Below, piece by piece: positions 11,050-57,311 of a stretch of 64,000 nt of DNA. This stretch comes from Bryopsis sp. KO-2023 (lineage: Eukaryota > Chlorophyta > Ulvophyceae > Bryopsidales > Bryopsidaceae): NCBI GenBank assembly GCA_030272585.1, contig BSYQ01000003.1, positions 4,898,001 through 4,962,000 of the forward strand. Direction: 5' to 3'. The notes below the pieces were generated by a model. It did not search any database and was not told where the DNA came from. It saw only the letters and a program-made list of their open reading frames with translations. How positions within the stretch are numbered: position 1 is the stretch's first letter; each line of letters starts with the position of its first letter. Position numbers and translations under genes: made by a program.

Positions 11050-11080
<31 letters not shown>

Positions 11081-23400: not shown

Positions 23401-24355
23401 GATTGTTGTACGATCGACATTGGGCCCTTCTGGATGTACAGGGTGAGATCTTGACAATCGGGAAACACCCAGAAATGGCTTGCATAAAGCCAAGGTAAAA
23501 AGCGAAAAAAAATGCACGGATTTGGAACATTCCCTTTGGCTCGGTTATTCTCACTTTGTACATATCAACAATCATAAAGTTAAAAGAATCGTTTTTCTAG
23601 GCTTGATAATTTCTCTTACACATCCTTTTACTAATCCAGGGCAATTCCCAGCAACCAGAGGGTGCATTTATATGTGTGTGTGTGTGAGCAGGTTGGATCT
23701 GAAAACTCGTACTTTGACGATTTCCCATGTAAATCGACCCAACAGCATCACCGTATCGATTGACCAAGAGGTTGAGCCCTGTAGTTGTCCTACAAAGGGG
23801 TCCAGCAAAGACAGCGCCCGACAGTGGTGTTCAGAAGCCATCTCATCCTGGCTGGAATCAGTTCTGTCAAAGAAATGCACCCTGTCAGTGTTTTCTGGAT
23901 CCAACAGAAACCAACCGAAGTGTGGTGTGAAGGATGGTTCAATCCAGGGTTTCTCGAACAAAGGTGGCGTGTCGTTAATTTCCACTGGGAGCGTGCTGGG
24001 GTTGGAAGAGAAATTGAGTTTGAAAAGTCGGACAAAACCATCCGAGGATTTAGATATGATGCGATTCAGAATGAACATGGTGGTTGATGTGGGGGTGAAT
24101 TCCCATACAGAAGATCGATGGGGGGTGTTTGGAGTGGGGGATTGCAGGTTCAGGAAATCGGAAGGGTGTGCCCGGTGTGATGTGGTGGTGGTGAATAGCG
24201 ATTTGGGGGTGAAGGATGGAAAGGAGGTTTTGCTGACATTGGCTGAGTATCGGCGCGATGGGGGCAGAGTGAAATTTGGAACGATTTGCGTTAGAGAGAG
24301 TGGATTTAGAGTAGCAGTGGGGGATCCTGTTTGGATTCAGGGGTCGAGCTGGTGA
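20435..24355 (+). CDS. MOCOS: Molybdenum cofactor sulfurase
   Basis: Eight exons: 20435-20682, 20842-20965, 21160-21301, 21510-21993, 22078-22155, 22314-22639, 22768-23494, 23692-24355. They sum to 2793 nt, giving 930 residues; animal MOCOS and plant ABA3 are slightly shorter. The enzyme takes sulfur from cysteine and adds it to the molybdenum cofactor of xanthine dehydrogenase and aldehyde oxidase in the cytosol. The N-terminal class V aminotransferase domain carries FTSGATEAL and the PLP lysine K290 in SFYKIFGYPTG. The persulfide cysteine is in FCNPGAC, with FGGGT and NFLAIAALR nearby. Then come the MOSC N-domain (beginning LKTLVIFPIKSCGA) and MOSC domain, ending after CARCDVVVVN. Exon 4 begins at an AG inside a longer open frame, chosen because it alone keeps the frame. 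It lies 239 bp downstream of the pheophytinase stop. A linker of about 100 low-complexity residues separates sulfurase and MOSC parts. Confidence 0.95.
21358..21380. repeat. Interrupted poly-G tract in MOCOS intron 3
   Basis: Eleven G, one C and eleven G in a row lie on the coding strand within the intron before exon 4. Such a run can form G-quadruplexes in DNA or pre-mRNA. Confidence 0.9.
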
Positions 24356-33668: not shown

Positions 33669-36250
33669 ATGAGATCGGCGATTTTCCGCGATAGTGAGCG
33701 ATTTCTGTCTTCCCCCTGCTTTGATCGACCACTTCTGCAAAGAGCTTTCCGCCAACCTTGGGCTACGAATCGTTGCTACCGCCGCCATCGTAGCTTGTAC
33801 GCCCCATCGTCTTCTCTGACTGGTACAGCTCCTCCGCACATCGCTCCACAAGCCACGATGGGCTTGGAAGGGGTGACAGAGCTGGATGACGATCTAGCAG
33901 GTGTAATTGTAAGTTGGAATCTCACATCCATCAGGAAGAAAACGAAAACAGAGGAGCACATCTGATTACCTCTCATGGCCTGCAGATAATCAACAAAGAA
34001 AAACAGTGATACACATTTTACTTGATTTTTTTTTCCTCTTCTTTCGCTTCTCTTGTTCAAGTTGTTTCATCTCAGATCAGGGATTGAACTCCATGCCCAC
34101 AGTGAGGAAAAACAGCAGCAAAAGACACAGGAAAAACAAAACTCCACGCAAACGAACCCATGTTCATGTCCATGGCTTTTCAAATTGAATTTAAAACCAT
34201 ATGGGCTGCTTTGGAATCTTAAACCACATGGGCTTCTTTGTTTGTTTGGTTTTTTCCTTTGTTTTGCCAGGGTGATGATGGGTTGATGACAGTAGCTGGG
34301 TTTGGCTCTCTGCTCTCAGGTCAGCCCCCATGGAAACGTGAAATACTTTCAGATTCGATGATGAAATGCATCTGCTGAAATTCAAACCAGCCAGTGGGGT
34401 CTTTCCATGACGATGCGTTGTTTTCGTCGCTTCTTCCGCAGAGCGGAGCTCTAGATACACTTTTCCAGACCTTCTCAACTTCAGAGTAGCGAAGGCAAGA
34501 GGAAAACGAAAACCCCTGGGATCCTTTTTATTTATCTTTAAATTGTTTTTACCTTTGAAGTGTAGATGAGTAATGTTGATGTTGGAATAACACGGAGAGC
34601 TCGTGAATTTTTTTAGATAAAAATTATCATATATAATATATAGCGTTTTTATGGAGAAGGGTTTGTTTTGTGCCTAGCCAATGATAACTGTTATTTTTTT
34701 TGCATTCTACCAAGCTTAGCAATACTTGTAACGCTTTTTATCGTGCAATTCACCTGCACGCAGGTGCCTGATTTCAGACGAGTGTTTGCTCATGCAGCAC
34801 CTATTTTCTTTCAGAGAGGAATAGCCCGGGTGGAAACGGTAAGGTGGTCCCTCCCCATCAGTCCAATCTACAAAATCGGGCCAGATAGAATTGAAGAATG
34901 GGAAGCGATGCTTAGTTTTACTTTCTGTGTGTGTGTTTTGAACGGAACTGCACTACCTTGCCATGATAAGACTCCAGTTTGGAGCTGCATCTTGGAGTCC
35001 AGTCAGTTTTTATGCAACAGATATGGAATCCCTGTTTTTAGTCTTTTGTTTCGAATTCCTGAAATGTTGGTTCATGCGTTGGTCTCTTTTCCTCCTCCTT
35101 CTTCTGGTGAAAAAAAAAAAGGAAAAAAAAATTGTGTGGAGGTGTGTTATGGTAACTTTTGAATATTAACGTGGATGTGAACTTGTGTCAATGCAATAAT
35201 TGATTTAACATGTACTGGCGTTTGAAAAAATACCTGAAGGGGGAGACCTCGAGTTTGGGGGTGGAGCCTTGCAAAGGTGCCGAACTCTGGGTTGCTTGTT
35301 TTGAGGTGCCAGCCACCAAGGAAGCTATCGAGGTGAATTAAAACAAAAAAAGAACACACAAGAAAAGAAAAAATTGTAAGATGAGCAATTTTGGACTTAC
35401 ATTCTGGTTTTCAAAAAAGAAAAGAATACATTATCCTCAAATGATTTTGTAGCTTTTGATGTTCAAAATTTTGAACGATTTACAAAACTCTGATATATAT
35501 TCCTGTTTATAGATGTCTTTTCTGATAGCTTAAAATCCATTCATAGGAGCGTTATCTTTCCTTTCCTTTCTTTTGTTTTCATTTATTTATTTATTATTTC
35601 ATTATTTCATTTTATTTTTATTTTTATTTTTTTGGGGGGGGGGTGTTTTGATTGCATAGGCATTTATCGAGAGGGAGCACGAATTCCGTTTCGTGAAAGT
35701 CTTCCCTGAGGACTTGGCCGAAAATGGATTTTCCACAGGGGCTAAAAGCAGGCCAGCAGTTTTGTGCTGCCGAAACACAGATGAAGAATATAAGGCCAAG
35801 AGATGCCCTCCGGAGGAATTCAACCGGCGATATGGACAATACGGCATACACAAAGTTTTCAGGTGAACCAGCCCATTCCTGGACAATAATAATTCAGTCC
35901 ATGAATTCGTACCAAGACATAGGAAAGACCATCAATTGGATTGATGCATCTATTGAAGGGAAAGGATGCTGCATCGTGACAGAAAGATCAGCTTGGTTTT
36001 TTTGGGTGTTTTTCTGATTGTGTTTTTTTCCTCCACGATGATATACAGAGATGATATCTTCCCTTGTCGCGTGTATCTTCGACATTGCACGTTGGCTGCC
36101 AAGAACCTGCATCCCCTAGTTTTTGACAATTTTATGGATCGCTCCTATCTTGGCGACAGGAAAACTACTGTCAGGGAATACCTGGCAAAGAACCCTTCAA
36201 TCATGGAAGAGTTGCCACCTCCAGAACTGGAGGAACGATACTGTGGCTGA
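33669..36250 (+). CDS. Conserved protein of unknown function, possibly plastid
   Basis: Five exons in matching phase: 33669-33908, 34764-34838, 35240-35332, 35660-35862, 36049-36250, total 813 nt, giving 270 residues. The first about 60 residues are Arg/Ser/Pro-rich and nearly free of acids, consistent with a transit peptide. The core runs from VPDFRRVFAHAAPIFF through ELWVACFEVP, EREHEFRFVKVFPEDL and EEFNRRYGQYGI to DDIFPCRVYLRHC and DRKTTVREYL near the C-terminus. I recall this last part as a highly conserved block in algal and plant proteins, but cannot attach a function; the middle is faintly reminiscent of gamma-glutamylcyclotransferase-like folds, which is weak inference. Exon 3 has an unusual A-rich acceptor context (ACCTGAAG), and residues just before it (YWRLKKYLK) also look protein-like, so its 5' border is uncertain. 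Confidence 0.65.
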
Positions 36251-36589
36251 TGTATTCAATGTCTGGTTTGTGGAAAGGGCTAATTCAGTTGGGTAGTTGC
36301 TGTGCAGTTTGTATAGTTAGGACCCTGGGTTGTGGTATTTCAAGGGATGGAACGGGGGGTCGTATTTTTTACTGTAAAAATGTGAATTCAACAGGTGGTT
36401 TTCTTTCTCAGTGCTTGTGTATGCCGAGTTCCTGCCTGCCTGCCCATCCATAATCGCTCAACTGTCAGAAGCCTTGCATCACCAACCCAATGAAATCGTA
36501 CCAGTGATCCCCCAACAACACACAAAACTGTGCAAGAGATTTGTGCACGGTGATACATCGTGCACTACACTGGTCCAAATGATGTACAT

Positions 36590-39074
36590 ATTCATGCTGT
36601 TTTATAATTTCTCCCCCTCTCCCCGTCCGCTCACGCCACCAAAGTAAGCAAGCGAAATATCCATAACGGCCACACCTGTGCTGGAATTCTGTAGTGGGTT
36701 TCTGACGCACGAGCTTGTGTGATGTCGAATCGCAGGCAAGGAAAAGCCCGCGCGCGTGGAACCCGACGAAAACGCCTGCATTTCCTTGCAGAAACATGGC
36801 GGCTCCGTCTGTAGTGACTCTGTCGACGTGCGTTTTTGTGGGGTTCTTGGTGGTGTGTGGCTTTTCTGTGGCGAACGGAGAGCGAATGCAAGGTAAGGGG
36901 GGAAGAGTCTCTGGTCGCTGTGGTACTGCCAGTTTCAATCGCTCAGCGTGGGTTTACTCTTTTTGGAAAAGCCACGCAGCGACTTTCAATCAGTTTATGG
37001 CCAATCCCGACTGGATGCCTCCGTTGGCGATTTCAAAGATTCAATGGTCGTCTCTCCTGTATTGTGGATTGAAAGTTTGACGAATGTTATGACGGAAAAC
37101 CAGGTGGAGGTGGAATGGCCCAAAGTGTTGATTTCACTGGAGACATGGCAGGGCAGGTAGCAAGACTTTTCAGAATTTCAAGTCAGTCTCAGATTTCCAT
37201 TTTCATTCAGTTTTCACATTTCCAAGGTGCTCAAGTGTGCGCGGCAAAAGCATATAGATTGTCCCTGCAACAAAGCCTTCTTTCTTTTTAAATTTTTTTT
37301 TCAATCCTAACTGATAGCTGAGTGTGGCACATGCTGCACACACATCACAATCGAGATGAAAATGATTTAAGGTGTGCATCTTTCCTTTGAACAGGGTTTT
37401 GCGGCGCCATCCAGAAAGATGCTGGCAAAACCAAGGCAATCTCGCTGGCTTCTTAGTGATGTCAATGCACGGAGTGGAGTCCCTGCCTATACGGGACCGT
37501 GTGCTCTTTGCGAACCACTCAGTGAGTGTGTCGGAGTGGCCTGGTGGTGTTGAATTTCCTGCAAGGGAATTAGCATCTCCAACCTTTTCATTCGGGAACA
37601 GGGGGAAAGGGAAGTGGGGCTGAAAGCTGAAACCCAATCCTCAATGTGGGTTTCGCAATAATAATAAGAAAAAGAAAAGTCATGCTGGAAGAGATTAGCA
37701 AGAACAGGTTATTTCAATTAAGGGGTTGATATGGTAGACAGTGTTTACATCTCTTTGATTTGCACAAGGGGAAAATCTTTCATTAAGTTAACGAAATCAA
37801 AAACTATTTACCTACCAGTGTTTCTGTTTAAAAAATCATGAGGGAATCTGATGTTAAAGAATTTAGTACTGACCAGAAAAAATTCTTTCTGCACTGTCTG
37901 TTTTTTGGCGGCTCCTTTTTCTTCCCTTTTTGTATCCACTTTTATCTACCTCATCATCCACTACCGATTTTTGCTTGTCTTTTTTTTTAAAGAATCCAAA
38001 AACAAGGATCGACCGAAAAAAAAAGACAGAAAATTCTTTTATAAAAACTGTAATGTAGATTTTGATGCTTGCTAAGCTTGAATGATCTGTAGTGGAGGGA
38101 AAAAAAAAACCTTTAAGGAAAGTGGGTAAGATGAATGAAATAAACCAACTCATGCATATATTTGGAGTTGTTTTGGGGAAAAGGTGAAGGATATATAAAA
38201 ACTGTTATTGTTCTAAAGGATTCGGTTTGGTAATAATCGAAGAAAGGACTGGGTTTTCTGCTTGCTGGTAGTATTGCATTAACTGGGATACATAGTACTA
38301 TGAGACAATTCGGGTTGTGTCCAAAATAAGGGAAATTTTTTAGACAAACAGTCGAACAGTGAGCTGGGCGACAGGGTTTGTGCTGACGAAGTTGTGTTGG
38401 ATTTCTATGAGTAATGGTCTTGAATCTTCTTTCTCATGCCACATTGTTGCAACCGCTTCATATGCCGTCGATCGATCGCTGGAAAATTTGGTATGTGTGT
38501 GAATGTGGAATTATGCTCCAAGGAAACCCACTCATTTCTTGTGCATTTTCCTCACGAAAGGCATAAATGTCTCTGTGAGATGCCTGTAGATTGAACGAAA
38601 AAGAAAAGTGTTCAACTTGCACTATTCTTTCAGGCAGCTTGTTTTTGTGGGGTGATCTTGTACAGAGCTTGTGATGGTTCAGAGAACATCGAGAACGTGT
38701 TCTGGCTTTTTGTTTCTCTGTTCCTTTTTGTACCGAGTTCCTCCGTGCCCATGCACACTTGCACAACAGCCGTCTTTACTGAAATCGTGCGATTCAACGG
38801 TACTCTTCCATCTAGCACCCCTGGACAACCTCCTTTCGCAAGGCGTCGCAATCCCACCGTTGCACAAGCTTTTGTGCAAGAAAATAGAAGCAATTCCGGA
38901 ACGTTTTCTTAGACACCGCACACTGTTCATGTCGATGCCCACTCTCCACACAAACAGTATGCAGTCGTGAAAATGCACCCGTCACGCATTCAGGCTGCTG
39001 GCGTGTGGGTTGAAGGGCGTTCACCAGAAAATACGATTGGAAGTAGTGCCGATCGAGCGGTACCTTCCATGTGA
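36590..39074 (+). repeat. Tandem gene-array unit 1
   Basis: First of three tandem units of about 2.5-2.8 kb. Homology to the later units starts in the spacer upstream of the gene (TAAGCAAGCGAAAT and neighbours), covers exons, introns and a long 3' segment (for example AGCAAGAACAGGTTATTTCA at 37700), and continues into downstream spacer with a shared CAAGCTTTTGTGCAAG at 38867. Borders are read by eye and are accurate to perhaps 50 bp. Confidence 0.8.
36796..37553 (+). CDS. Small secreted cysteine-rich protein, array copy 1
   Basis: Three exons: 36796-36892, 37104-37156, 37395-37553, total 309 nt, giving 102 residues. The first exon encodes a classic signal peptide: MAAPSVVTLSTC followed by a hydrophobic core VFVGFLVVCGF and a likely cleavage site after SVANG. 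The second exon gives a Gly-rich stretch and SVDFTGDMAGQ. The third begins GFAAPSRKMLA, runs through a variable basic segment, and ends GPCALC, then SECVGVAWWC, giving four cysteines spaced C-x2-C-x5-C-x6-C with Cys as the last residue. There is no membrane anchor, so the product should be secreted or luminal. Intron phases (1, then 0) match both neighbours. I know no family with this pattern; a defensin-like, toxin-like or signalling peptide is an inference. Other open frames across exon 3 are shadows. Confidence 0.8.
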
Positions 39075-41921
39075 TATATTCTTGCTGTTTTCTGATTTGT
39101 CGCCGCTCTCCTTATCCACCCAAGCCACGCAGTAAGCAACCAAATCTCCACAAACGCTCGGGTCTGTGTTTTTTCCTGCAGAGGGTGAAACACAGCATAC
39201 CGCGCGCGGTCCTGCTTTCAAATTCTGCAACCGGTGTCTAAATGACGCACGAGGTTGAAAGCTTGTGTGGTGTCGAATTATAGGCAAGGCAAGCCTGCGT
39301 CCGCGCCCGCGCCATTTCCTTGCTGAAACATGGCGGCTCCCTCTATCATGACTTTGTCGACTTGCGTTTTTCTGGGGTTTCTGGTGGTATGTAGCTTTTC
39401 TGTGGCGAACGGAGAGGGACTGCAAGGTAAGAGCGGAGTCGCAAGTCGACGTGGTACTGCTGGTTTCGTCCGGTTAGCGTGGGTTCACTCTTTTTGGAAA
39501 GCTTCGCAGCGTGCGACTTTCAAAAATAATTTCACGGCCAATCCTGACTGTCTGCCTCCATTTGCAATTTCAAAGATTCAGTTGTTATCTCCTGTGTTAT
39601 GGATTGAAAGTTTGACAACTGTTTTGACGAAAACCAGGTGAAGGTGGAGCCCCAAGAAGTGTTGATTTCACTGGAGAGATGACAGGGCAGGTGAGCAAGA
39701 CTTCCCAGATTTTTAATCCAGTCTCAGATTTGCATTTTCATTCAGTTCACATTCTCGCTGCTCAAGTGCGTGTGGCAAAAGCAAATGGATTGTCCCTGCA
39801 ACAAGGCCACCTTTTTTTTTCTCTCTCTGATTTTTCTTTTACCATCCCTCCTTTGTCTTATATCTGAGTGCATGATGGCCTATGCTGCACACACACATCA
39901 CAATCGAGGTGAGGGTGATTTTCGTGTGCATCTTTTTTTTTAACAGGGTTTTGCGGCGCCATCCAGAAAGATGCTGGCAACACCAAGTGTAACACCTTAC
40001 GGTATTGGTGTAGCCCCCGCACTTACTGTTGGCGTCCCTGCGCATGTGGGGCCGTGTGCTCTTTGCCACCCACACAGTGAGTGTGTCGGACAGGTTTGGT
40101 GGTGTTGAATTTCCAATAAGGAAATTAACAACCCCAGCCTATTCATTCGGGGACAGGGGAAAAGGGAAGTGATGCTGAAAGCTGAAATTGAAACCTGCGG
40201 GTTTCTTAATAACAATAAGAAAAAGAAAATTCATGTTGAAAAAAGGTTAGCAAGAACAGGTTATTTCAATTAAGGGGTTGATATGGTAGACAGTGTTTAC
40301 ATCTCTTTGATTTGCACAAGGGGGTCTTTATCTTTCATTAAGTTAACATAACCAAAACTACCCGCCAGGAGTTTTATTTTCCAGTGTTTCTGTTAAAAGC
40401 ATGAGGGAATCTGATGTTGGGGGATTTAGTACTGATTCGTGATCAAAGTTTTTTCTTTCTGCACTTTTTTTTTTGCCACTTCTTTTTCTTCCCTGTTTAA
40501 TCAGTTTTGTTTGTCTCACTATCCACTATTGAGGTTTATTTGTCGTTTTTTTTTTCCTTTTATTGATCCAGAAACAAGGATCGACAAAAAAATAAATAAA
40601 GTATTTTCGAAAAGACTGTACTGTAGATTTTAATGGATCACACTCGTTAATATCGACTACTGGTTTGGAGTCGAGGGAAGAAAAAAGGGTATTAGGGAAA
40701 GTGGGGAAAAAAATTAAATTAAAAAACTCAGGGAAATATTCAGGGTTGTCTTGGGGTAAAGGTAAAAGTTATACAAAAAAGGTTCTTATTGTTTTAAAGG
40801 ATTCGGTTTAGGAATAATGAAGGAAACGACTGGATTCGGAGTGCCAGTTTTTTTGAGTACAAGGGAAACTGGCACACTGCATTAATTGGGATACATAGTA
40901 CCGCGACACAATTCGGGCTGTTTCAAAAATAAGGGTGAATTTTTTGGACGAACAGGGAGCTGGGGAACAGGGGTTGCTGTAGTGGATTGTTATGGAGTGT
41001 ATCAGATTCGTATCTTCTTTTCCATGACCACATTCCATATTTTGTTCATTCGATTCTGGAGGAATCGGTAAATGTGAAATCATGTTCCACACTCGACAAC
41101 AGACAGTGGTTTCTTTTATTGTTATTGTTTGTTTTCGTGCTTAAATGTAGAAGGCCCAGACCTTCTGGGCCAGAAGGGTAAAGTACAGCTATCCGCCTGT
41201 TGTTTCGCTTTTCCAGCCCACCATCGAAACTGTTTTACTTTTGCTAGTGTTTGTGGTGGGCCGAATTCCGCCTTTCGTTGCCGACTGGTTCCATTGGAAG
41301 TACATCGTTTTGAATCTGTTTTCCACTTGCACGTCCCGTGACTTGGCCTTAGAAAATGCGAATTGCAAGCGCCGACAGTGTCCTCGAGAAGTTGGTGTTC
41401 CTGTTCCAGCAGTATCTTTGATCGAGAATTCCCTTAGGAGAATACCCCTTTGCGAGACGGCTGCAATTCACAAGCTTTTGTGCAAGGGAAACAGTCGGCG
41501 ACGTTTTCGTGTCATATTTGCTTGCTGATCCGGTGTTCATGCGATAAACAGACTGCTATTACATGTCAATGCCCACTCTCCCCCCAAAACCGAAAAGAGT
41601 GATGGGGAAAAAACGCACGTCACTAGGACTTGCGCGCGCGAAACATAAAGTGCGTGTGCGCACGACGTCTCACGCAGAAATATTTTTTTTTGCTATTTCG
41701 TAGAAATATTTCATGTCGCGCGCGCGTCACACGACCCTGCGCAGCACTGTTATAGCTATTCAACCTCCAAACCAAAGACATAAGCAAGTTGCCACTCAGG
41801 GAATGACAATGTTCCCTGGGCTGGGCGCAGATTTCTTACAGCGCGCGTCGCTCGCTTTCGGCCTGATGGCATTTGGACTGAAGGGTGGATGTAGTGCTGG
41901 TCCAGCAGTACCTTCCGTGTG
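39075..41921 (+). repeat. Tandem gene-array unit 2
   Basis: Second unit of the array, about 2.85 kb. Its gene, introns and the segment 40230-40330 (AGGGGTTGATATGGTAGACA and neighbours) are nearly the same as in unit 1. The downstream spacer carries the same CAAGCTTTTGTGCAAG at about 41470 plus extra CG-rich sequence. Confidence 0.8.
39330..40108 (+). CDS. Small secreted cysteine-rich protein, array copy 2
   Basis: Three exons: 39330-39426, 39638-39690, 39947-40108, total 312 nt, giving 103 residues. The signal-peptide exon is identical in protein to copy 3 except for its last residue. Exon 2 encodes EGGAPRSVDFTGEMTGQ. Exon 3 starts with the same GFAAPSRKMLA as copy 1, then has a quite different, Val/Pro-rich middle (TPSVTPYGIGVAPALT), and ends GPCALC, SECVGQVWWC with the same four-cysteine spacing as copy 1. 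All splice sites are canonical GT-AG and the frame is intact. Expression is likely, since the frame is kept although the middle of exon 3 has diverged strongly. Function unknown; an extracellular role is inferred from the signal peptide. Confidence 0.8.
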
Positions 41922-42023
41922 ACATATTGATATATTCTTATTCTTTTCTAATTTGTCGCGGCTCTCTCCGTCCACCCACGCCAACCAGTAAGCAAGCAAA
42001 CCTCCATGAACGCGCGCGCGCGC
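41632..42023. repeat. Alternating CG tracts upstream of array copy 3
   Basis: Three CG dinucleotide runs lie at about 41632-41640, 41715-41726 and 42011-42023 within 400 bp upstream of the third gene. A shorter one lies upstream of copy 1 (36749-36757). Alternating CG favours Z-DNA and gives dense CpG methylation targets. No other part of the window has such a cluster. Confidence 0.8.
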
Positions 42024-43860
42024 CTGTGTTATCATCTCCTGTCAGCGAGGCCGAGGTCTCAAATTCTGCAGCAGGTTTCTGACGCCCGAGCTTGTGTGAT
42101 GTCGCACCGCAGGCAAGGAAAAGCCCCCGCACGTGGAACCTGGCGAAAAGGTCTGCATTTCCTTGCTGAAACATGGCGGCTCCCTCCATCATGACTTTGT
42201 CGACTTGCGTTTTTCTGGGGTTCCTGGTGGTGTGTAGCTTTTCTGTGGCGAACGGAGAGGGACTGAAAGGTAGGGGGAAGAGTCTCAAGTCGACGTGGTA
42301 CTGCTGGTTTCGTTCGCTAATCATGGATCACCCTCTGGGAAAACTCCCTGTAGTGGCGATTTCATAGATTCAATGGTATTCTGTATTCTGAAGACTGTTG
42401 TGATGGAAACCAGGCGGAGGTGGAATGGACGACAATGTTGATTTCACTGGAGAGGTAACAGGGCAGGTGAGCAAGACTTCCCAGATTTTCAATCCAGTCT
42501 CAGATCTGTCTGTATCCAGTCTCTATCTAGTTCAGTATCTTTTCAAATCTCTATTGGGGGGGGGGGGGGCAAAAGCAAATGGTGCAACAAGGCCTTCTTT
42601 AACTTTGATATTTCTTTTTCCATCCCTCCTTTGTCTTATATCTGAGTGCATGATGGCCTGTGTTGCACACATATTGCAATTGAGGTCAGGGTGATTTTTG
42701 TGTGCATCTTTCCTTTGAACAGGATGTTGCGGCGTCATCCAGAAAGATGCTGGCAATACCACGTCCCATGAATATCCTAGCAGTTCGCAACGGAGTCCCC
42801 ATTTTTTCAACTCATTGTTTCAATTGCAGACCATATAGTGTGTGTCGCAATGCGGCCTGGTGTTGAATTTCCTGCGAGGAAGTCAGCGCGCAGCATTTTT
42901 GGAAACAGGGGAAAAGGGAAATGGAGGTCAAAGCTGAAACCCAATCCTCAATGCGGGTTTCTCAATAATAATAAAAAAAGAAAATTCATGTTGCAAGGAG
43001 GTTAGCAAGAACAGGTTAATTCAATTATGGGGTTAATATACTAGACAGTGTTTACATCTCTTTGATGTCCAAGGAGGAATCTTTCATTAAGTTGACGGTC
43101 CGCTACAATGGACCAGAAAAAGTATTTACACACCAACATTTATATTTTCCAGTGTTTCTGTTAAAAGCGTGCGGGGATCTAATGTTCAAGTATCTGGTAC
43201 TGATTCATCTCCAGGGTTATTTTTCTCCCCTTTTTTTTTGGTTACTTCTTTTTCTTCACTTTCTTTTTTTACACACACTTTTGTCTGCTACTTTATCCAC
43301 TATTGAGTTTTAATTGTCTTTTTTTTTTTTCCCTTGTTAACGATCCAAAAACAAGGATCGGCTTTAAAAAAAGTACAACACTTTGTTCTGTAGATTTTGG
43401 TAGACCTCACTTGATAGGCCTATTGATACAGAGTGGAGAAAAAAAGAAGAACAAAAAAAACTTTAAGGAAAGTGGGCAAGACGAATGAAATAAGCCAACT
43501 CATGTACATATTTGGAGTTGTTTTTTTTTGGGGGGGGGGGAAGGTGAAGGTTACACAAGACTTGTTATCGTTTTTAAGGATTCAGTTTAGCAATAATGAA
43601 GGAAAAGTGCTAGATTCTGCTTGCCAGTTTTCGAAGTACAAGGGAAGTTGGCAAGCACCGCATTATTTTGGGGGGCTGTTTCGATAATAAGGGTGAATTC
43701 TAGACAAGCAGCCTAACAGGGAGCTGGGTAACAGAGATTACTGTAACGAAGTTGTGGATTGTTAAAAAGTTATGACCTGGAATCTTCTTTCTCATGGCCT
43801 GGTTGCAATGGCTGGTTGATGCATTCCTGGGAAATGTAGTATCTGTTCGTGAATGTGAAA
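41922..43860 (+). repeat. Tandem gene-array unit 3
   Basis: Third unit of the array. Homology to units 1 and 2 runs from the upstream spacer through the gene and the 3' segment (AGACAGTGTTTACATCTCTT at about 43043) to about 43860, where it fades near the equivalent of 38490 in unit 1. The first intron is shortened relative to the other units. Confidence 0.75.
42173..42866 (+). CDS. Small secreted cysteine-rich protein, array copy 3
   Basis: Three exons: 42173-42269, 42414-42466, 42723-42866, total 294 nt, giving 97 residues. Exon 1 gives the shared signal peptide (MAAPSIMTLSTC to SVANGEGLK). Exon 2 reads GGGMDDNVDFTGEVTGQ. Exon 3 is the most diverged: DVAASSRKMLA, then a short variable part (IPRPMNILAVRNGVP), and a C-terminus HCFNCRPYSVCRNAAWC with spacing C-x2-C-x5-C-x5-C. 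One of the two tryptophans before the last cysteine is lost, yet all four cysteines and the terminal position of the last are kept. The intron before exon 3 contains a 14-G run at 42556-42569. The frame is intact, so this is a functional-looking paralogue and not a pseudogene. Confidence 0.78.
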
Positions 43861-45312
43861 ATTTTGCTTCTCATGATGGGCGATCAAATCTTAAGTATAT
43901 TGATCGAAATCCATGCATCCGTTGTTCAATGGGCTCCTCCATTTCTATATAAAAATACAGTGTGTGCTGGAATTTCTGCAACTTCCTCGAGTGCACCCCC
44001 CCCAATTCCCTGACAGGGTTCATTTCCACTTTTTCTATTACATATTGCCTGAATCAGGAAAGCCAACCGAAGTTGTGGAACCCTAAGCAGGAGTGTAATC
44101 ACAAGGCCATACAGCTTTTTGACCAGAATAGGGGGGGGGGGGGTCGATGTTTCCTTTCAGAAATACGGAAGGAATGAAGTATTTTGGCCCGAGAGTGAAA
44201 AAACCTAAGTCCTGAAGCATTTTGACCTGATGTTTAGATTTATGACTTCAATCAATTGTCTGATGAGGAATCCTCTCAGCCTGAGCATCAGTTTTGATTT
44301 TTTTTTTTTCCTTGACAAATGTTACAGAATTAATCCACAAAAAGATGAGAAAAAAAAAACATGAATCCAAACTGCAGATGCAGGCAGCCTTTTTGTTCAC
44401 ACTCAACCCTCTTTTTTTTTCCTCCAGCAAAACTTTTCTGCCACACCCCCACCCCCCAGTTTTACTTCTTCCTCTTGAGCCTTGTTGAACCCTGCACCCC
44501 AAATTTTCTAATCAAAACAAAAAAAAGATAGAAAGAAAAAACAAAAATCTAGACCTAAAAAATACCAAACTCGTGCAACCCCAATTTTTTCACCACTTCA
44601 TTTCCAGACCTTTTTACCCCACCCTCTCCATTTTTTTTTTCCTCCTTCCCATTTTTTTGCTCATTTTCCTAGCCAATATATCCACACCAAAAAAAATAAA
44701 ATATACAAACCTACAGCGAAGCCGAATTAAAACTCGGCCCGCATCAGTTCAAATCCTCTTCGAGCAAAAACATCATGACAATTCAAAATTATTCAAAACT
44801 CTATATATGTTTCTGTCTTTTCCTGTTTCTTACATCCCTTCGACCTAAAGTATATATTGCAAACAGAGTTATTTTTTTTTTCTTTTTTCCCCCTCTGCTT
44901 GATGCACCACCAGCAACTGCCCCAGCCCCCACCTCTTTCAATCTGAAAATCAATCATAAGAAATATCACACGATTCCAAACTACATATTATTCTGAAATT
45001 TTTCATACAAAACATTCGAACCCCCCCCCAAAAAAGGGGTCTATCTATTTAAAGAAAGAAAAAGAAAGATTACGACAGCAAAGGGTACCCAGACCAGAAA
45101 AAGACGCTTTCAGCATATTTTTTGCCCCACAATTTATTCAATTCTTTATCGCTCGCTTCTTAGTGTGTTTTTTTTTCCCTCGTTTCTCCACTTCCTTCTC
45201 CGCCGCCTCCACTTTTTCTTTCTCTTTTTCATTAAAAAAAAAACACCCACACACATACAGAGAGGAAAAAACCCTCCTCCCCGCCCCCTCTCCCCCCAAC
45301 ATGCATTTCTTC
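43861..45312. other. AT-rich spacer with no supported gene
   Basis: About 1.45 kb between the last array unit and the stop of the RING gene. It holds a 13-G run at 44131-44143, many A/T homopolymers and only short frames. A hairpin-like GCCGA/TCGGC near 44720-44740 followed by GTTCAAATCC resembles part of a tRNA but lacks the other arms. Confidence 0.45.
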
Positions 45313-47484
45313 TCATTGTCCAATTTGCACACACAAAATGGAGCTGACGTACTGCCGACAGAGGGGGCATTCTCTTTCAGCTTTGCCTTCCCAATGCTTC
45401 TCCAGGCATTGCTGGCAGTAGTTGTAGTGGGAGCAGGGCAGGGCCAACACGTTTTTCTTCCTCTCGCAACAAATTTGACACAAAACCTCGCACTCATACA
45501 TGCGCAGATATTTGTCCCTCTCGGAGAGCAACCTGAAAACACATTTTCAATCTTAGATTCCTTTTTTTTTTTTTAATATCAACTGGATGATATTTCCAAT
45601 ATCCCCCTTTACCTCCCACACACCCAAACAAAAAGAAAAGGGCAGGAATGGAAAGTGATTTACACATTCAATGGCACATGGATTCTCCACAATCGAACGA
45701 AAAGTGAACTACTGCGTTGTTTTTTTTTACTGGATGCAGCATTTTTCTGACCAAGAAATTCACCTTTCGTCATTAGGGGGTGTGTGCAGCATATTGTATG
45801 GCAACCTCACCTTTCATTCTCCAGCTCCAAATCGTGCATTCGATTTGAAAGCCCAGTCACTCCCGACTCCACCTCTTGCCCTTCATCCGCCCTCCCTGCT
45901 AAATCCTCCGACACCGGCATCGACTCCTCCGCAATCTCCTCCGCCCCAGCGTCGTTTCCTCCACCACCACCCCTCCTCCCCTGCAACTCCCCGTTACAGT
46001 TGTGGTTCTGCAAAGACTCTTGATTGGACAGCATCACCGTGTCTTCTGGCACAGCCACCAAATTGTTCAGCCCCTGTCTGCCTCCCCCGCTTCCCAGTCT
46101 GTCTGAATCTGATATGTGGTGGTTGCGGTTGTGGTTACTCCTCCCAACGAGTGAAGGGGACACAAGCTGCTGCTGCTGTTGTTGTTGCTGCTCAGGGGAG
46201 GTGCCGGGTTGAGGCGACGGATCCCTGGACACACTCCTCACCATTTCGTTCATATTCCCAGCTCCTCCCCCTGCAGTTCTCTGACCGGGCTCCGGTGTCC
46301 CTGAACCCCCATTGCTACCACCAGTATTCCCAGCAGCAGCACCACCCACATTTGAGCCACCGCCGGCCCCTCCCCCCTCCCCCACCCCGTTTCCACCTTG
46401 CTGGGCACCTGCTCGAGTCTGACCGAAACGGCTGAAACTCATTGGTGGTCTGGCTAAGGGAATAGAGTGCAATCCGGGTGGAAAAGATTGCCGCCGTGGT
46501 GGAGCAAAAAGGAAGGTGGTTGCTGCTCTACCGGTGTTAGTGTCCCTGGTGCCTGGCTCTGATCCAACACCAGCCCATGACCTCCTCACAGAAGCAGGGA
46601 GCCCGGAACGCTGCGATCTGGGGAAATGGGAGGCCGAGTAGCCCCCCACCTGATTTCCCAGCCGAGTCCTTCTGATGTTGCCCGTCGGGGGAAACCTGAC
46701 TCGTCGTCGGCTGATCGGGTTTTGATACAGCAACAATTCGATGTCTGTCCCCTCCGGAGAGCCACCCGTTTGTTGAGGTGATCTCCATCGCTGAGCACCA
46801 AACCGGGCTGACGATTGAATCGACAGGGTATCGAAGAGTCGACGAGCGGTTTGAGGAGGAGTAGAAGTGGGGGTTTGTTGAGGGGGCTGAATGTCTCCAG
46901 GTGGGAGAGGGGGAGCGGAGGGGGGGTCGACGCCGCCCCGCTGTATTGGCTGCAAATCGTTGAAGGGGCCTGGGAGATTTTCTGACTCGGTGGGTTCCCC
47001 CATATCTTCGGTCCGATTCGAAGGGTCTGGAGGTAGTGCCTCTGGTTGTATTGGTGAGGTCACTGAATCGAAAAAGCAAGGAAAGCCATTTGAACTGAAT
47101 AACCGTTCGCTCATTTTCCAACAGATCGACACAACCATCCATTTCTCTCGACGGAAAAATCCTTGAAAAGAATCGTGGGAGAATTTTCTCCAGCAGGTGC
47201 CTTACTTCTTCCTAAAATCCTCCGAGTTTTTTTGTGTTTTTGTTCTGCTCAATAGAATGATGTTTTTTGATCGGCTCACCTTCACCGTCCTCCTGTTCCA
47301 CCCCACGATCGTTGTTTTCCTCGATCCTGCCGGTGCTTCGTCTGTGCAAGAGCCCCACCGGCTGATTGATGGTGTCGCCAGATTCCACTTTTGAGTCCGT
47401 TTTCATGGACGTTTCGCAATTGTCCTCATCGTCGCTGTCAGCAGCTCTCAGGGACCATGGGGTCTGCTGGCGCTGCACCCACAT
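45313..47484 (-). CDS. RING-finger protein with long disordered N-terminal region
   Basis: Three exons on the minus strand: 47484-47280, 47062-45811, 45532-45313, total 1677 nt, giving 558 residues. The C-terminus carries a C3HC4 RING: CQICCERKKNVLALPC, then CSHYNYCQQC and ECPLCRQ, with the protein ending SSILCVQIGQ. This predicts an E3 ubiquitin ligase. A short helical segment (NRMHDLELENERLLSERDKY) precedes the RING. Everything before that is low complexity: acidic at the start, then Pro/Arg-rich, Gly/Ala-rich (GEGGGAGGG), an eight-glutamine run, and Asn/His-rich. No substrate-binding domain is visible, so the target is unknown. The start ATG at 47484 is the first in frame; a weakly supported upstream exon near 47840 could extend the protein by splicing. 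Head-to-head with the LAS1 gene. Confidence 0.75.
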
Positions 47485-48800: not shown

Positions 48801-51800
48801 ATGGCAAGGACTTGTGACGATATGGCTCATGAAGTCAAAATCGACCCGACGGCGCTCTGGTCGGAGGTTCCTTGGTCGACACCGGTGGAGTTCAAAGAAC
48901 TCCGGGACTGCCTGCTGTCCAAGCGATGGCAGAAAGTCAAGCGGGGACTGGAACAGGTTGGTAGGCGTGCCATCAGGTGCATCTTTCGTTTTCAAAATTA
49001 CAAGCAGGCTCCCAGGGAAGTATTTTGCTTCCTTTTCTGCAGTGCCAAATCTTGGGGACTGCAGCAGCACTGAGGGACAAAATGATGCATGATGAGCGGC
49101 ATCATTTTGAGCAAATTTCAGTTGCATGGAGAATTTGTTCAGGTTTTTTTTTTCTATGGTTGATGGTCTGACAGGTTGAGGCGTGGAAGAAGGCGGACAA
49201 AGAGGTCCCCTTAAAGGTGGAGGCAACTTGCTTCCTGTTGCAAGCTTTTCTCAGGGACCCCGGCAACACCCCCTGCTCCGAGTCGATCGATGCGCTGGGG
49301 GGTCCCTTCACCTCTGGGGAGCTCGGGAGCGCTTACGCCTTGGCCATCGTCAGGTAATTTCCAGGTTTTCTTCATGGTCATTTAACTGTTCACAGTTGCA
49401 ACTCTTTCCAATCAGTTTTCTTCGTTTCTTTAACTTGTTGCTGAAATGTGAAGTGATATGCAGAAAGATTTTAAAGGAAAAATACGGTGGGTTGGGCAGG
49501 GTTGTGAGCAGCATCGTGGACCCAATCCGACGTCAGGTGCCGGTCAACATGGATGTGATTGCGGAGAGCGAGGGGTTTCCCATGGCTTGCTTGGAGGTTC
49601 GCCATGGTATCGTGCACAACAAGATGCCCTCCCTTGAGGAGCTGCAACGTGGTGCCAAGGATTGCTTGACATACCTTACCAAGCACTTTTGGTATGTGGA
49701 GAAAAAAAGCCATGCATGCTTCTGCATGTCTATCTTGACACACATGTTTGTGATCCGGTGAAGGATTTAGATTTACCCTGTGTTGGTCGTTTCCGAGGTT
49801 TCATGTTGAGCTGTGAAGAGGAATTTGGCTCCCTGGAATCGTAATTTGCTTTGGAACTTTTTTGCAGGGATGCCATGTGCGATTGGTACCTGCCTTCGAG
49901 GGACAAGGTGGAAAAGGTGCGAGAATAAATATCGAATGCCAAAACTTTTTTTCTGCAACAAACTTTCCGCTGATTCTGGCTGATCCAGTGAGGGGTGCCG
50001 GATTCATGCTGTCCAGCAGAGAATGCTTTCATAAAGTCAATCAATGTGCCCATCAGAGTTGGAGGCAATGTGAAAGCTGGGATGGAATGCATGCATGTAC
50101 ATGATGGATCATGTTTCGGCATCCAAATTTATTTGCATGTGTTTTTTTTTTGTGTCCGTGAAGGAGTTGAGGGAGTTCTTCAACTTCCACGAGCGATTGA
50201 ACCGGAGGAGAACCAGGAAATCTGGTTCACGCGTTTGGGGGAAGAGGCTCCGGGATTCGAGCTCCGAAGGGGAGGAAAACGTTGAAGATGGAAATGGAAA
50301 TCCACGGAGCCGAGAAGGTATGGATGTGTGCGTGTGTGTGTTTCACCCGTACAAGTCTTGACTATCGTGACTGTTGGTTTGGTACTTACTTCTGTTTGTT
50401 TGTTTGTTTGTTTGTTTGTTTGTTTGTTTTACTTTGGAGGGTGTTTTTCAACCCCCTCCTCCTCTCCCTTTCCACTGTTTTGCAAGTGCATGGAAGTCAA
50501 TTTCGGGGGGCGAGGGATGACTGTATCCAGCATGAATATGTGTCAAAAGTAAAGCCCCGTCAGTGTTTGTTCAAATATTGATCTCCATTGGAAAAAAAAA
50601 CGATTTTGGGATTTGAATGCATGTTTGTGTGTTTCGCTGCAACAGAGATGAGTTCCTTGAAGGGGTTGGAGGTCCAGAAGCAAGTGATGCGCTCTTCGGC
50701 CTCCATTCAGGCTTTGACGAATGCATCGATGACCTCCGTAACAAATATCCTGCTGGAAAAGTTTTCGCCGCAGGACCATTTGGAAGGTACATATGACAAA
50801 AAAACAGCCGACCCAACCACACATTCCATTCCTGTGCTGACACATATTTTTGTAGGGTTTTGCCTTGCCCATCAAATTGCATCCTTTTTCGAGTGGTGGT
50901 TTCTTGTTTTTTTCCCCCGCTTTTTCACTTAATGGGATGAAAATTCGATGCTCTTTTCAGGACTGGGGAAAATCATCGAGTTGTGTCCAAAGGCGTACTC
51001 GGCGCTTTTGGAGCAATTCGTGGCAAGGTCGGTGAGAGGGAAGCAGTCGCAGGGGCATTGGTTCGGTTGGCTCACAGCCGGCGAAAGGTGTGTGTGTGTG
51101 GAATTTCCCCAGCAATGCTATTTTTTTTCATTCCATTTCATCAATCCATGCTGTGTCTGTGGGTCTGTCAAAACTCCTGAGACTTCTTCTTCCATGAATC
51201 GCCTTTGCAGCCGTTCCTCACTCTTGTCGAAAGCCGACCACAAGCATCATATGATGCATTTGGTTCGCTCCTGCCATCCCGCCACCCCGACCCACGTCAT
51301 TTCCGAAGGAGGGGCCGGCACTATCAAAGCGCTCCTGGGCTGGATTTTGGATTCGGGATGTCAAAGAGGGTACTTGGTAGAAACGAATGCCGAGGAAATC
51401 AGAGCGTTGGCAAACGACATCCTGGAAGGAGCCGGAAAGGTGGACCCAGATGTGAAGCGAAAGAGGATAGATCCTGGGTTCATACCATTAATAGCTTCTA
51501 AGGAGGATTCCGATGGAGGTGAGTGGGCGGCTGGTCGTGTGCAGATGAGAATCTGTTTGATTGTTTTTTTTGGTCCCGGTTGTGGGTTGGGTTTTTTTGA
51601 ACAGTTTGTGTAATTGCTGGGTGAGATTTTGACGTTTGTTGCAGGAGGAATTGGGCTAGAGGAAGTGGAAGCTTCTGAGGAGAGGGAACGAAAATTGAGC
51701 AAATTTTTTGAGGGAGGGGAATGTGAGGAAAAGAAAGAAGTCGAGAAAAAGGATGTTTCGAAAAAAATCGCAGGTAGGCATTAGGCATGCGGGCTGATCT

Positions 51801-54141: not shown

Positions 54142-54904
54142 GGGGAAGAATAGGGGGGGGGGCCAGTTTGTTTTCTTGTGCCCCCGAGGCAGGATGAAAT
54201 TTGAAAAAAACCTGAACGTTTCGGTTTTAGCCTTTTTTTTTTTCAAAGGAAACGTTATGTGTTGAGTGATGTGTATAATATACGGAAATGGACTCTAGGA
54301 TTCGATTTAGTGATTTTTAAAGTTGGTGGTTGGAACAATGGATGCTTGATACAAAACAGAGTGCATGGAACGAGGTCCTTTTCACGGGTTGAAAGCTTTG
54401 TCATTACAATGCAAATGGGAAAATCGAATCACCGAACAGAATTCGTTCGAATGCCAAAGGAATGGCCGCCTCCGCCTTCAGCAACGGGAAAATCAATCAA
54501 TCAATCAATCGCTGCGACGAGGAAAAAATTCTCGTAAAAAAAGTGGAAATCATCAGAGAACGAGGTGTGGAATTGGTGGAGTGGCCACGTGGTTCGGAGG
54601 AACGAGGATATATCCGTGGGCCTGGTGATTGATTGGTGATCAATTGTAGTAACTCTTCGAAGGATATGAGGTGTTGGGATGTCTTTTGTTAGACTGGCGG
54701 TGTGTGTTGTGCACTTTCACATCCACACATCGCATCAACAGGACTGTGTTTATTCTTGGACTGATTCTCCACCAACCCCTCTTCAGTCCAAGGAGAATGA
54801 CCTTGCTGGAGCGATTGCGATAGGTCTGTCTGTGATGCCCGCTCCGACCTCACCAGGCGGCCGATTCAAAATCTGTGAAGGGCCTGCCGGACGCTGTATA
54901 CTCC
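54142..54904. other. Spacer before the sulfotransferase gene
   Basis: About 760 bp holding the 3' end of the exonuclease transcript and the sulfotransferase promoter. It includes a short (ATCA)n run near 54490-54510. Open frames here are short and unrelated to known proteins. Confidence 0.45.
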
Positions 54905-57311
54905 ATGGCGCCGCCAAACATCGCGGCCCTGTTGATTCTGGGGATCGTGTCGAGCGGCGGCGTAGGAACGGTCGCAGGGCAGAGCCAATTCTCGTTTCGA
55001 TACGATGACGGCCTGTGCCGCGAAATCACGTCTGAGAATGCTGCGAGTTGCTGCGTGGACGACCCTTTGCCTCCAGCGGGCCCTTTTCCTGGGAAACTGG
55101 TGATCGGAATCGGGCCACGGAAAACCGGAACGACGTATCTGTACAGTTTGCTGCAGGATCACCCTGACATCAAGGTGCCTGGGCGGGAGTTGAAGGAATT
55201 GCATTTCTTTTCCACTCGGAGGAGTCGGTTAGATCGTGACAGCAAAAATGGGACGCTCGAGGAATACATGAGTTATTGGGATTTGAAGGACACCAGCGAA
55301 TCGACGGTGTTCATGGAGGTTTCTGCCGATTATTTCAGAGTGAGCCTTTTTCTAATTTTGCTTCCCGATCGGGTGAATCAATCGGAACAAAAAAAAACTA
55401 CAAAACAAGAAATCGATTCGCTTTTTTGATCATTTACACTTTCTCTTGAGCATTTTCATAATCCCCACTTGCTGATGCGAAAAGGAAAGCCTTAAAACTT
55501 TTACAAGAGAATTTGTACAAGCACAGAAACAGCACTCATATCCTCCCATCTCACTCTTTTCCTCTCCAAATTTAACTGACATTACTCTTCCATTCCCTTC
55601 TTTGTTTTCACACTGACATTCTTGTCAAATCATTTCACCAGGGTTTTGAGTGTTTGCAGTTTTTGTTCAGGATCCGGCTGCTCCTTGTAGATTGAAGCGA
55701 ATGGCCCCCCACGCAAAAATTTTGGTCAATTTCAGGGACCCGGCGGCTCGAGCTCTGTCTTTGACACAAATGCTCAGAATGCAATGTGTGCAGGACAAGG
55801 CAAAAAACACATTCAGAATAAACGAGCTGTACCCGAAAGTGTGCTGCACCGTTGCCAAACCTTTCCATTGCCTGTTCGAAGAAGCCAAAGAGGAAATTAG
55901 ACAAACCCCAGGATGTGATTTCCAGTCAGGTGAGCAGTCTCCCCCCCCCAAAAAAAAAAATTTTAACAATAATAATAAAAGTAATAAAATAAAGTAAAAT
56001 TGATTATTGAATGTGCGAAATGCAGGTAACACATTCGGAATGTGTTATTTGTATTTCCGCAATCATCGATACGGAGACAAAAAAATGCTTTAAATATGAA
56101 AGAAAGAAAAACAAAAAAACCCGTTGATAGACCTACCCACAATTCACCTCCTGTTGAACCTTTTTCCCAATTCAGGAAAGAAACGCTATTGTTTTCTTTT
56201 CGCCTCCTTTTTCGACAGCGAAACTCATTTGGCTTCTTGTTTTCCCCCCTTTTTCTTTTTTGGGTTGTGCAAATAAAAACCTAATCTGCTGTTTTCTTGC
56301 CAGGTGTTGCAAGGAAGAATTGGATGGAGTGCGCCCACAGGGAATATGTTCACGATCCGATACATTCGGGACATTATGCAGCGATCACCGCTTGGTGGTT
56401 CGAGTTTTTTCCCCCTGAGAATTTTCTTTTCATGAGACTGGAAGAAGATCTTATGGCGGTACGTACGTTCTTCGTTTCAAAAACTTGCTATCGACATTTT
56501 TTTTTATTTTATATACATGTATATATTTTTTTTAATTTTTTACTTTTTTTACTATTTTTTATAATGTATATATATATATTTTATTTTATTTTAAACTGGT
56601 GGATATCATCCCCCTCCTGTCACGCTCGTACCAAGTCTGGTTTGCATGTGCAAATATAAAAATACAAAGATTTCCTAACATGCATTTATTTTCCCTGTCT
56701 CATGGCTTCAGGACCCCCTGAAACAAGCGAACAGAGTGTTGGATTTCATTGGCATTACCACCCCATTGGAGAAGATCCCCGAAACGAACGCGAACAGCGG
56801 TCAATACACCTGGGTCGAACCGTTTCTGAAACCCACCCTTCGCCAGATGCAGGTCTACTTTTCCAGACCCAACACGGAGCTCATAATGTTTCTGCAAAGT
56901 CAGGGTCACGACCTGGGTCTGATGAATCTGGAAACCCCCAGAGAGAGCGCAGGTTCAATTCCTTTGCCGGTGGATTGCCCATACAAAGGCGATCTGGGTG
57001 AATTCGACCATCATGATATGCCCCAACATAACTCGCTGGATTTCTTGAAGGAAACTGTCGAACTGAAGGTGCAAAACTGTGAGGTTTCGGATTTCCCTTG
57101 CTGCGATGACCTGAAGGAGAGTTTTTATAGACTGACTGAGCTGTACAAACGGCGCCATGGATGGGGGCTGTTGAAATATTACCAGAAGCTGTGCGTAGTT
57201 GCGGTTGCTGGGGTATATTTCATCTATGTGTACAGGAGCCAACCTCGACTGGTCAAATTTTGGTTTGATGCTGTAAGAAGCCGTTTAATGAGGTTCCGTC
57301 GCCCCATTTGA
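54905..57311 (+). CDS. Carbohydrate sulfotransferase, GalNAc4S-6ST-like
   Basis: Four exons: 54905-55339, 55671-55929, 56304-56458, 56712-57311, total 1449 nt, giving 482 residues. Sulfotransferases of this family move sulfate from PAPS to hydroxyls of polysaccharides in the Golgi lumen. The 5'-phosphosulfate loop reads GIGPRKTGTTYL and the 3'-phosphate motif reads NFRDPAARALSL; ITAWWFEFFPPENFLFMRLEED is the family's next conserved block. Residues 1-25 (APPNIAALLILGIVSSGG) look like a cleavable signal peptide. A second hydrophobic segment lies at about 441-457 (LCVVAVAGVYFIYVY), followed by a basic tail, so the topology may be type I rather than the usual N-terminal anchor. Several cysteine pairs (ASCCVDD, KVCCTVA, FPCCDD) suggest luminal disulfides. 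The acceptor sugar cannot be read from sequence; sulfated wall, scale or matrix polysaccharide is likely in an alga. Confidence 0.88.

Follow-up and report, generated by a model that had tools for sequence, protein, structure and literature searches.

What do three small genes standing in tandem in a green-algal genome produce, and why does the end of their product differ more between copies than the non-coding DNA around it? The window considered here is a stretch of 64,000 nucleotides (nt), positions 4,898,001-4,962,000 of contig C3 in the assembly of Bryopsis sp. KO-2023 (Ulvophyceae, order Bryopsidales; 91.09 Mb in 28 contigs). It harbors an array of three related three-exon genes. The C-terminal part of their products is very probably accelerated, being more diverged than the introns and flanks of its own units. 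Tentatively, we suggest that the array represents a Bryopsis-lineage family of secreted prepropeptides, with three working genes, whose products are cleaved, diversify and act as defence peptides. Published work is cited below by PMC number.

Structure of the array

The initial annotation described three intact three-exon genes in tandem, and its exon coordinates proved correct in every copy. The same holds for the shared intron phases (intron 1 phase 1, intron 2 phase 0), the tandem units of 2.5-2.85 kb (ATG-to-ATG distances of 2534 and 2843), the product size of 97-103 residues (102, 103 and 97 amino acids in copies 1, 2 and 3) and the C-terminal pattern, which reads C-x2-C-x5-C-x6-C in copies 1 and 2 and C-x2-C-x5-C-x5-C in copy 3 and always ends on the final residue. 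All six introns have GT...AG borders; exon 1 measures 97 nt, exon 2 53 nt and exon 3 144-162 nt. The homologous part takes up about 1.9 kb per unit, the remainder being spacers that align poorly or not at all. Limits of the units below are approximate and come from the three-way unit alignment, repeats and DNA search; cleavage of the peptides is presumed.

36570..38517 (+), repeat unit 1, homologous part
36796..36892 (+), copy 1 exon 1, with the start codon, the presumed signal peptide (MAAPS..SVANG) and the beginning of the propeptide; copy 1 is identical to BSKO_03842
37104..37156 (+), copy 1 exon 2: propeptide
37395..37553 (+), copy 1 exon 3: propeptide end, RKML site, variable region, stop
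37413..37424 (+), copy 1 RKML, candidate site-1-protease site, invariant in all three copies (motif from PMC13082318)
37425..37550 (+), copy 1 putative mature peptide, 42 amino acids, four Cys
39060..41029 (+), repeat unit 2, homologous part
39330..39426 (+), copy 2 exon 1
39638..39690 (+), copy 2 exon 2
39947..40108 (+), copy 2 exon 3
39965..39976 (+), copy 2 RKML, candidate site
39977..40105 (+), copy 2 putative mature peptide, 43 amino acids, four Cys
41900..43868 (+), repeat unit 3, homologous part
42173..42269 (+), copy 3 exon 1
42414..42466 (+), copy 3 exon 2
42723..42866 (+), copy 3 exon 3
42741..42752 (+), copy 3 RKML, candidate site
42753..42863 (+), copy 3 putative mature peptide, 37 amino acids, four Cys

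Duplication during assembly was considered as source of the array and rejected, because exons of different copies are merely 60-96% identical.

Coding capacity

Comparison of the copies makes it almost certain that all three are coding genes. The four C-terminal cysteines are invariant in all of them, and the ratio of nonsynonymous to synonymous substitution (dN/dS) in exon 1 is 0.25, 0.36 and 0.10 for pairs 1-2, 1-3 and 2-3 (the order of pairs kept throughout). When sequences were left to drift, start, open frame, stop and four cysteines were jointly kept in 0.27% of runs for copy 2 and 0.025% for copy 3. This null is a simple one: 20,000 runs per copy started from copy 1 as ancestor and used the observed per-exon differences, with substitutions only, indels omitted and all change placed on one branch. 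Spliced copy 1 is moreover identical in 102 of 102 residues to hypothetical protein BSKO_03842 (Bryopsis sp. KO-2023) in nr.

If the array were a regulatory repeat or a non-coding transcript under conservation, with open frames that are incidental, this would explain why part of the 3´ flank (37663-37761) is strongly conserved (all three copies agree in 42 and 44 of 50 columns) and why the 100 nt before ATG are conserved as well. Nevertheless, such an array is barely credible. Frame and cysteines are preserved and the copy 1 protein stands in public annotation; no Rfam family matched at gathering score within 34000-46000, and none of the 32 pairs predicted for the 3´ element changes on both sides, in a comparison of three sequences only.

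Precursor architecture and candidate processing

The signal peptide proposed in the initial annotation fits the N-terminal hydrophobic stretch, as judged from hydropathy alone. The best 14-residue hydropathy (2.56-2.61) falls on residues 12-25 of the precursors, and the stretch closes with VANG|E, by inspection a plausible signal-peptidase site. A low-confidence AlphaFold2 model places a helix at 5-28. We consider it very probable that the proteins are secreted. The presumed signal peptide is followed by a propeptide rich in Gly, in which VDFTG is invariant. Towards its end all three copies share SRKMLA, and the variable part begins directly after it.

RKML is di-basic and in each copy fits RxxL, not the strict RRxL. 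Site-1 protease, like some other plant subtilases, is described as recognising RxxL/RxLx, and AtS1P cleaves RALF23 at INRRIL-ATRRY (PMC13082318). A candidate enzyme is at hand: by its sequence, a site-1-protease-like gene (MBTPS1-type subtilase) is present in the assembly, split over several open frames at C6:2,805,258-2,808,525. Profile search of the assembly matched MBTPS1_3rd at C6:2,805,258-2,805,680 (minus strand, E 3.7e-24) and, within 3.3 kb of it, MBTP1_N at C6:2,808,367-2,808,525 (minus strand, E 2e-8); the same searches gave matches in none of 14 control genomes. An exon between the two has its best PDB match in 8uwc, membrane-bound transcription factor site-1 protease (5.6e-36), and the open frames of the locus show the subtilase Asp, His, Asn and Ser motifs by eye.

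Cleavage of the precursor at RKML appears somewhat more probable than its absence. The released peptides would comprise 42, 43 and 37 residues in copies 1, 2 and 3, weigh 4.2-4.6 kDa and carry four cysteines, which probably form two disulfides. The functional product would then probably be these last 37-43 residues, not the whole chain, as in a prepropeptide.

Accelerated divergence of the C-terminal part

The identities of the three pairs change along the unit as follows.

100 nt before ATG: 86, 89, 80%
Exon 1: 87, 87, 96%
Intron 1: 83, 80, 79%
Exon 2: 92, 83, 82% (81, 83, 74% in a second alignment)
Intron 2: 83, 76, 84%
First 33 nt of exon 3, through RKMLA: 100, 91, 91%
Remainder of exon 3, the variable part: 71, 65, 62%, values at the floor, as shuffled tails of copies 1 and 3 (200 shuffles) reach 60% identity on average and 77% at most
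3´ flank, positions 1-150: 82, 85, 82%

The variable part of exon 3 lies below the introns in all three pairs (Fisher p = 0.0065, 0.014 and 2e-5). It was also set against 101-110 overlapping, and hence not independent, 120-nt non-coding windows from its own units. By normalised alignment score, 14 of 110 such windows were as low as the part after RKMLA in pair 1-2, and 0 of 101 in pair 1-3 as well as in pair 2-3. By identity, none was as low in pair 1-2 (0 of 110) or pair 1-3 (0 of 101). Since the result hinges on alignment settings, we hold down the weight given to it.

Could copy 1 be the only functional gene, with copies 2 and 3 decaying and their C-terminal divergence a mark of relaxed constraint? 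Neither copy 2 nor copy 3 was found as an annotated protein in a set of 5.8 billion proteins, where BSKO_03842 is the sole match, and dN/dS of exon 3 is close to 1. The protein-set search reaches only proteins of similar length with common 5-residue words (50 and 3 candidates were compared), so the two copies are either missing from the set or modelled with a length far from their own. However, coding DNA under relaxed constraint alone should diverge as far as introns and no further, yet the C-terminal part exceeds intron divergence. Frame, stop, splice sites and four cysteines are intact in copies 2 and 3, against the 0.27% and 0.025% of the drift null, and their first exons agree in 93 of 97 bases, above their introns (p 0.0005). 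We therefore regard decay of the two copies as improbable.

Several observations count against the reading of a cleaved, accelerated and antimicrobial C-terminal peptide. By identity, 13 of 101 non-coding windows score no higher than the variable part of pair 2-3; tail identity depends on gap settings, and this pair reaches 74% over fewer columns in the window test. The exon-3 dN/dS is about 1.07, 0.80 and 0.82 (dN 0.28, 0.49, 0.58; dS 0.26, 0.62, 0.71). Because dS is raised too, classic positive selection is not established, and a local hotspot of mutation or recombination would fit. Exon 1 is significantly more conserved than introns in one pair of three (p 0.44, 0.061, 0.0005), conservation of the 100 nt upstream of ATG is similar to that of exon 1, and exon 2 is near the intron level. 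Three copies are few. The presumed cleavage leans on a motif that other subtilases use as well, and the net charge of the putative peptides at pH 7 is +0.8, -1.0 and +3.8, only copy 3 being clearly cationic. What drives the divergence is either selection and recombination jointly, or a local process that raises all change.

Mosaic history of the copies

The copy that differs from the other two is not the same along the unit. Odd-one-out counts for copies 1/2/3 are 3/19/4 in the 5´ flank, 11/2/2 in exon 1, 28/11/26 in intron 2 and 5/12/29 in the variable part of exon 3. Over nine regions this shift gives a chi-square of 71.8 with 16 degrees of freedom, a value as high as which was reached in 0 of 2000 permutations. 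Five non-coding regions alone are uneven as well (chi-square 36.6, 0 of 2000 permutations). Without the 5´ flank, their chi-square falls to 13.9 (p 0.031; 72 of 2000 permutations reach the observed value), so much of the non-coding unevenness stems from one stretch. Exchange between copies by gene conversion would be the simplest account of this mosaic, and region-specific rates may contribute to it.

Extent of the family and comparison with known systems

Further copies in the assembly, whose search the initial annotation had advised, did not turn up: protein and DNA searches found none beyond the three units. Protein queries were copy 1 (E <= 0.001) and copy 3, copy 2 exon 3 and copy 2 (E <= 10); DNA queries were 36590-40400 and 40400-44000, and matched pieces of the three units only. 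The assembly is searched exon by exon, counts are therefore lower bounds, and strongly diverged copies could escape. The remark of the initial annotation that no family with this signature is known stands as far as Pfam (no family at E <= 10 for any copy), PDB (no chain) and NCBIfam (two chance-level matches, each in one copy of three, best E 0.14) are concerned, but copy 1 was already public as a hypothetical protein. One gene is thus public without function, and our search of open-licence literature turned up no account of the family, of its variability or of its processing logic. Structure prediction with AlphaFold2 for copy 1, together with the translated exon 3 of copies 2 and 3, yielded a mean predicted local distance difference test score (pLDDT) of 45.4 and a predicted template modelling score of 0.23. 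Residues 28-102 have pLDDT below 50 and the model is unusable; it is too poor for fold matches to be meaningful.

Land-plant RALFs have a signal peptide, a propeptide and a four-cysteine C-terminal peptide (PMC13082318, PMC5258720), an architecture like the one proposed here, and in some of them, such as RALF23, an S1P site lies just before the N-terminal Ala of the product (PMC13082318), comparable to the candidate site RKML-A. The YISY receptor motif of RALFs (PMC5258720) is, in contrast, absent by eye from all three copies. The same source reports no RALFs in any of the five chlorophytes surveyed (PMC5258720). By these tests, the lack of YISY and of any Pfam match, PF05498 being unmatched in all three copies, the proteins are not RALFs. 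The product is hypervariable here, and its cysteine spacing also differs from that of RALFs.

Conotoxin precursors resemble the array in having primarily three exons and a C-terminal peptide that varies; substitution is accelerated in their mature part, for which mutators and selection have both been proposed (PMC10561478). They are animal venom genes, however, with no sequence relation found, and the likeness is one of working only. By analogy, the family may share its mode of release with RALFs and its mode of diversification with conotoxins.

SCOOP peptides are not known to contain cysteines. Their precursors, the PROSCOOPs of Brassicaceae, are likewise lineage-specific secreted propeptides (PMC6382344), many of them with RxLx/RxxL sites (PMC13082318), but the peptides are serine-rich (PMC6382344). 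Plant alpha-hairpinins, the motifs of which are predicted in green-algal transcriptomes too, are also short and have four cysteines (PMC11591084). Alpha-hairpinin identity was rejected: the pattern C-x3-C-xn-C-x3-C (PMC11591084) differs from C-x2-C-x5-C-x5/6-C found in all three copies. Two lectins of the same genus, bryohealin and BPL3, are linked to wounding or defence (PMC3252328). BPL3 is described as similar to an H-type lectin, with two cysteines connected intramolecularly (PMC5793061), and on this description a relation to the family was set aside.

Possible role of the released peptides

The initial annotation listed defence, toxin, mating and recognition without ranking them. The spliced genes, signal-peptide-like stretch and tandem duplication on which it built hold, but it missed the C-terminal divergence above that of non-coding DNA and the invariant RKML-A that fits site-1 protease. 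Defence genes typically combine restriction to one lineage, duplication, exchange and a rapidly evolving secreted product. On account of these features and of the exposure of Bryopsis protoplasm upon wounding, we chose extracellular defence as a possible, still rather doubtful role. Bryopsis protoplasts are reported to live membrane-free in seawater for 10-20 minutes, and bryohealin is reported to have an antibiotic domain (PMC3252328).

A possible course of events would be this. Spanning about residues 1-28 and cut after ANG, the signal peptide would direct the precursor into the secretory pathway, where a site-1-protease-type subtilase would cut after RKML and free a 37-43-residue C-terminal peptide with two disulfides. 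Selection, or a local process retained by selection, would diversify the freed peptide, with leader, processing site and cysteines kept, and gene conversion would mix the copies. The peptides might then serve as extracellular antimicrobial defence of a giant-celled alga, the cytoplasm of which meets seawater bacteria at each wound.

Defence appears more likely than signalling, which is a close rival. The freed peptides could be recognition ligands, active in sorting of self and non-self protoplasm, wound signalling or gamete and mating recognition, their diversity providing specificity; we consider this somewhat unlikely. The anatomy is like that of land-plant precursors that carry RxxL/RxLx sites for subtilases (RALF23, CLEL6, many PROSCOOPs; PMC13082318), an incompatibility barrier to alien components is reported in Bryopsis protoplast formation (PMC3252328), and with peptide charges so different a common membrane-attacking mode is not obvious. 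On the other hand, a ligand bound to a fixed receptor should not out-diverge introns. The assembly has no match to RALF (PF05498) or to the malectin-like receptor (PF12819) either, a weak point, as 0 of 14 control genomes matched either one.

Alternatively, the cysteines might bind metal or cross-link wall protein, making the C-terminus a structural or metal-binding tail and not an effector. C-x2-C spacing is common at metal sites, and two His lie between the cysteines of copy 2. Copies 1 and 3 have none there, though, the residues between cysteines vary, and secreted Cys-rich tails are usually oxidised; a tail of this kind is quite improbable.

Another idea, speculative and rather unlikely, is that hypervariable, site-1-protease-released cysteine peptides select bacterial partners, or sort own from foreign protoplasm, in the torn cell, having arisen independently of RALF-type peptides with use of the same protease. 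Bryopsis is reported to maintain a stable and specific inner bacterial community despite repeated membrane-free phases (PMC3252328). A fast-changing, apparently secreted family with RALF-like processing would offer named candidates for how these bacteria are retained.

To our knowledge, peptide precursors cut by site-1 protease have been described mainly from land plants. A chlorophyte family of this kind would, if true, suggest that this route is old or arose twice. Peptides of 37-43 residues are small enough for direct synthesis and testing.

Conserved 3´ element and neighbouring genes

In the 3´ flank of each unit, a stretch of about 100 nt stands above its surroundings in conservation (37663-37761, about 40215-40313 and about 42970-43068). 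Copies 1 and 2 are identical there over 50 of 50 positions at 37712-37761; perhaps it is an element of the 3´ untranslated region.

Just upstream of the array, 35660-36247 (+) appears to be the end of a spliced gene with two open frames, the second ending LEERYCG-stop; neither has a Pfam match. Downstream, 45313-47201 (-) is a probable convergent gene. Its long frame of low complexity, 45810-47201 (-), matched nothing in Pfam. A protein search with a low-complexity query from a neighbouring gene found nothing at E <= 1e-5 among 7992 candidates. The frame 45313-45546 (-) is RING-finger-like by eye (CQICCERKKN..CSHYNYCQQC..CPLC).

Other frames of the window matched Pfam families: G6PD_C at 10726-11673, LRR families at 6636-7379 (-), Las1 at 49180-49758 and, below cut-off, Sulfotransfer_3 at 54836-55426. 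Aminotran_5 at 21422-22051 is followed by MOSC_N at 22722-23498, an order which we take to be that of molybdenum-cofactor sulfurase.

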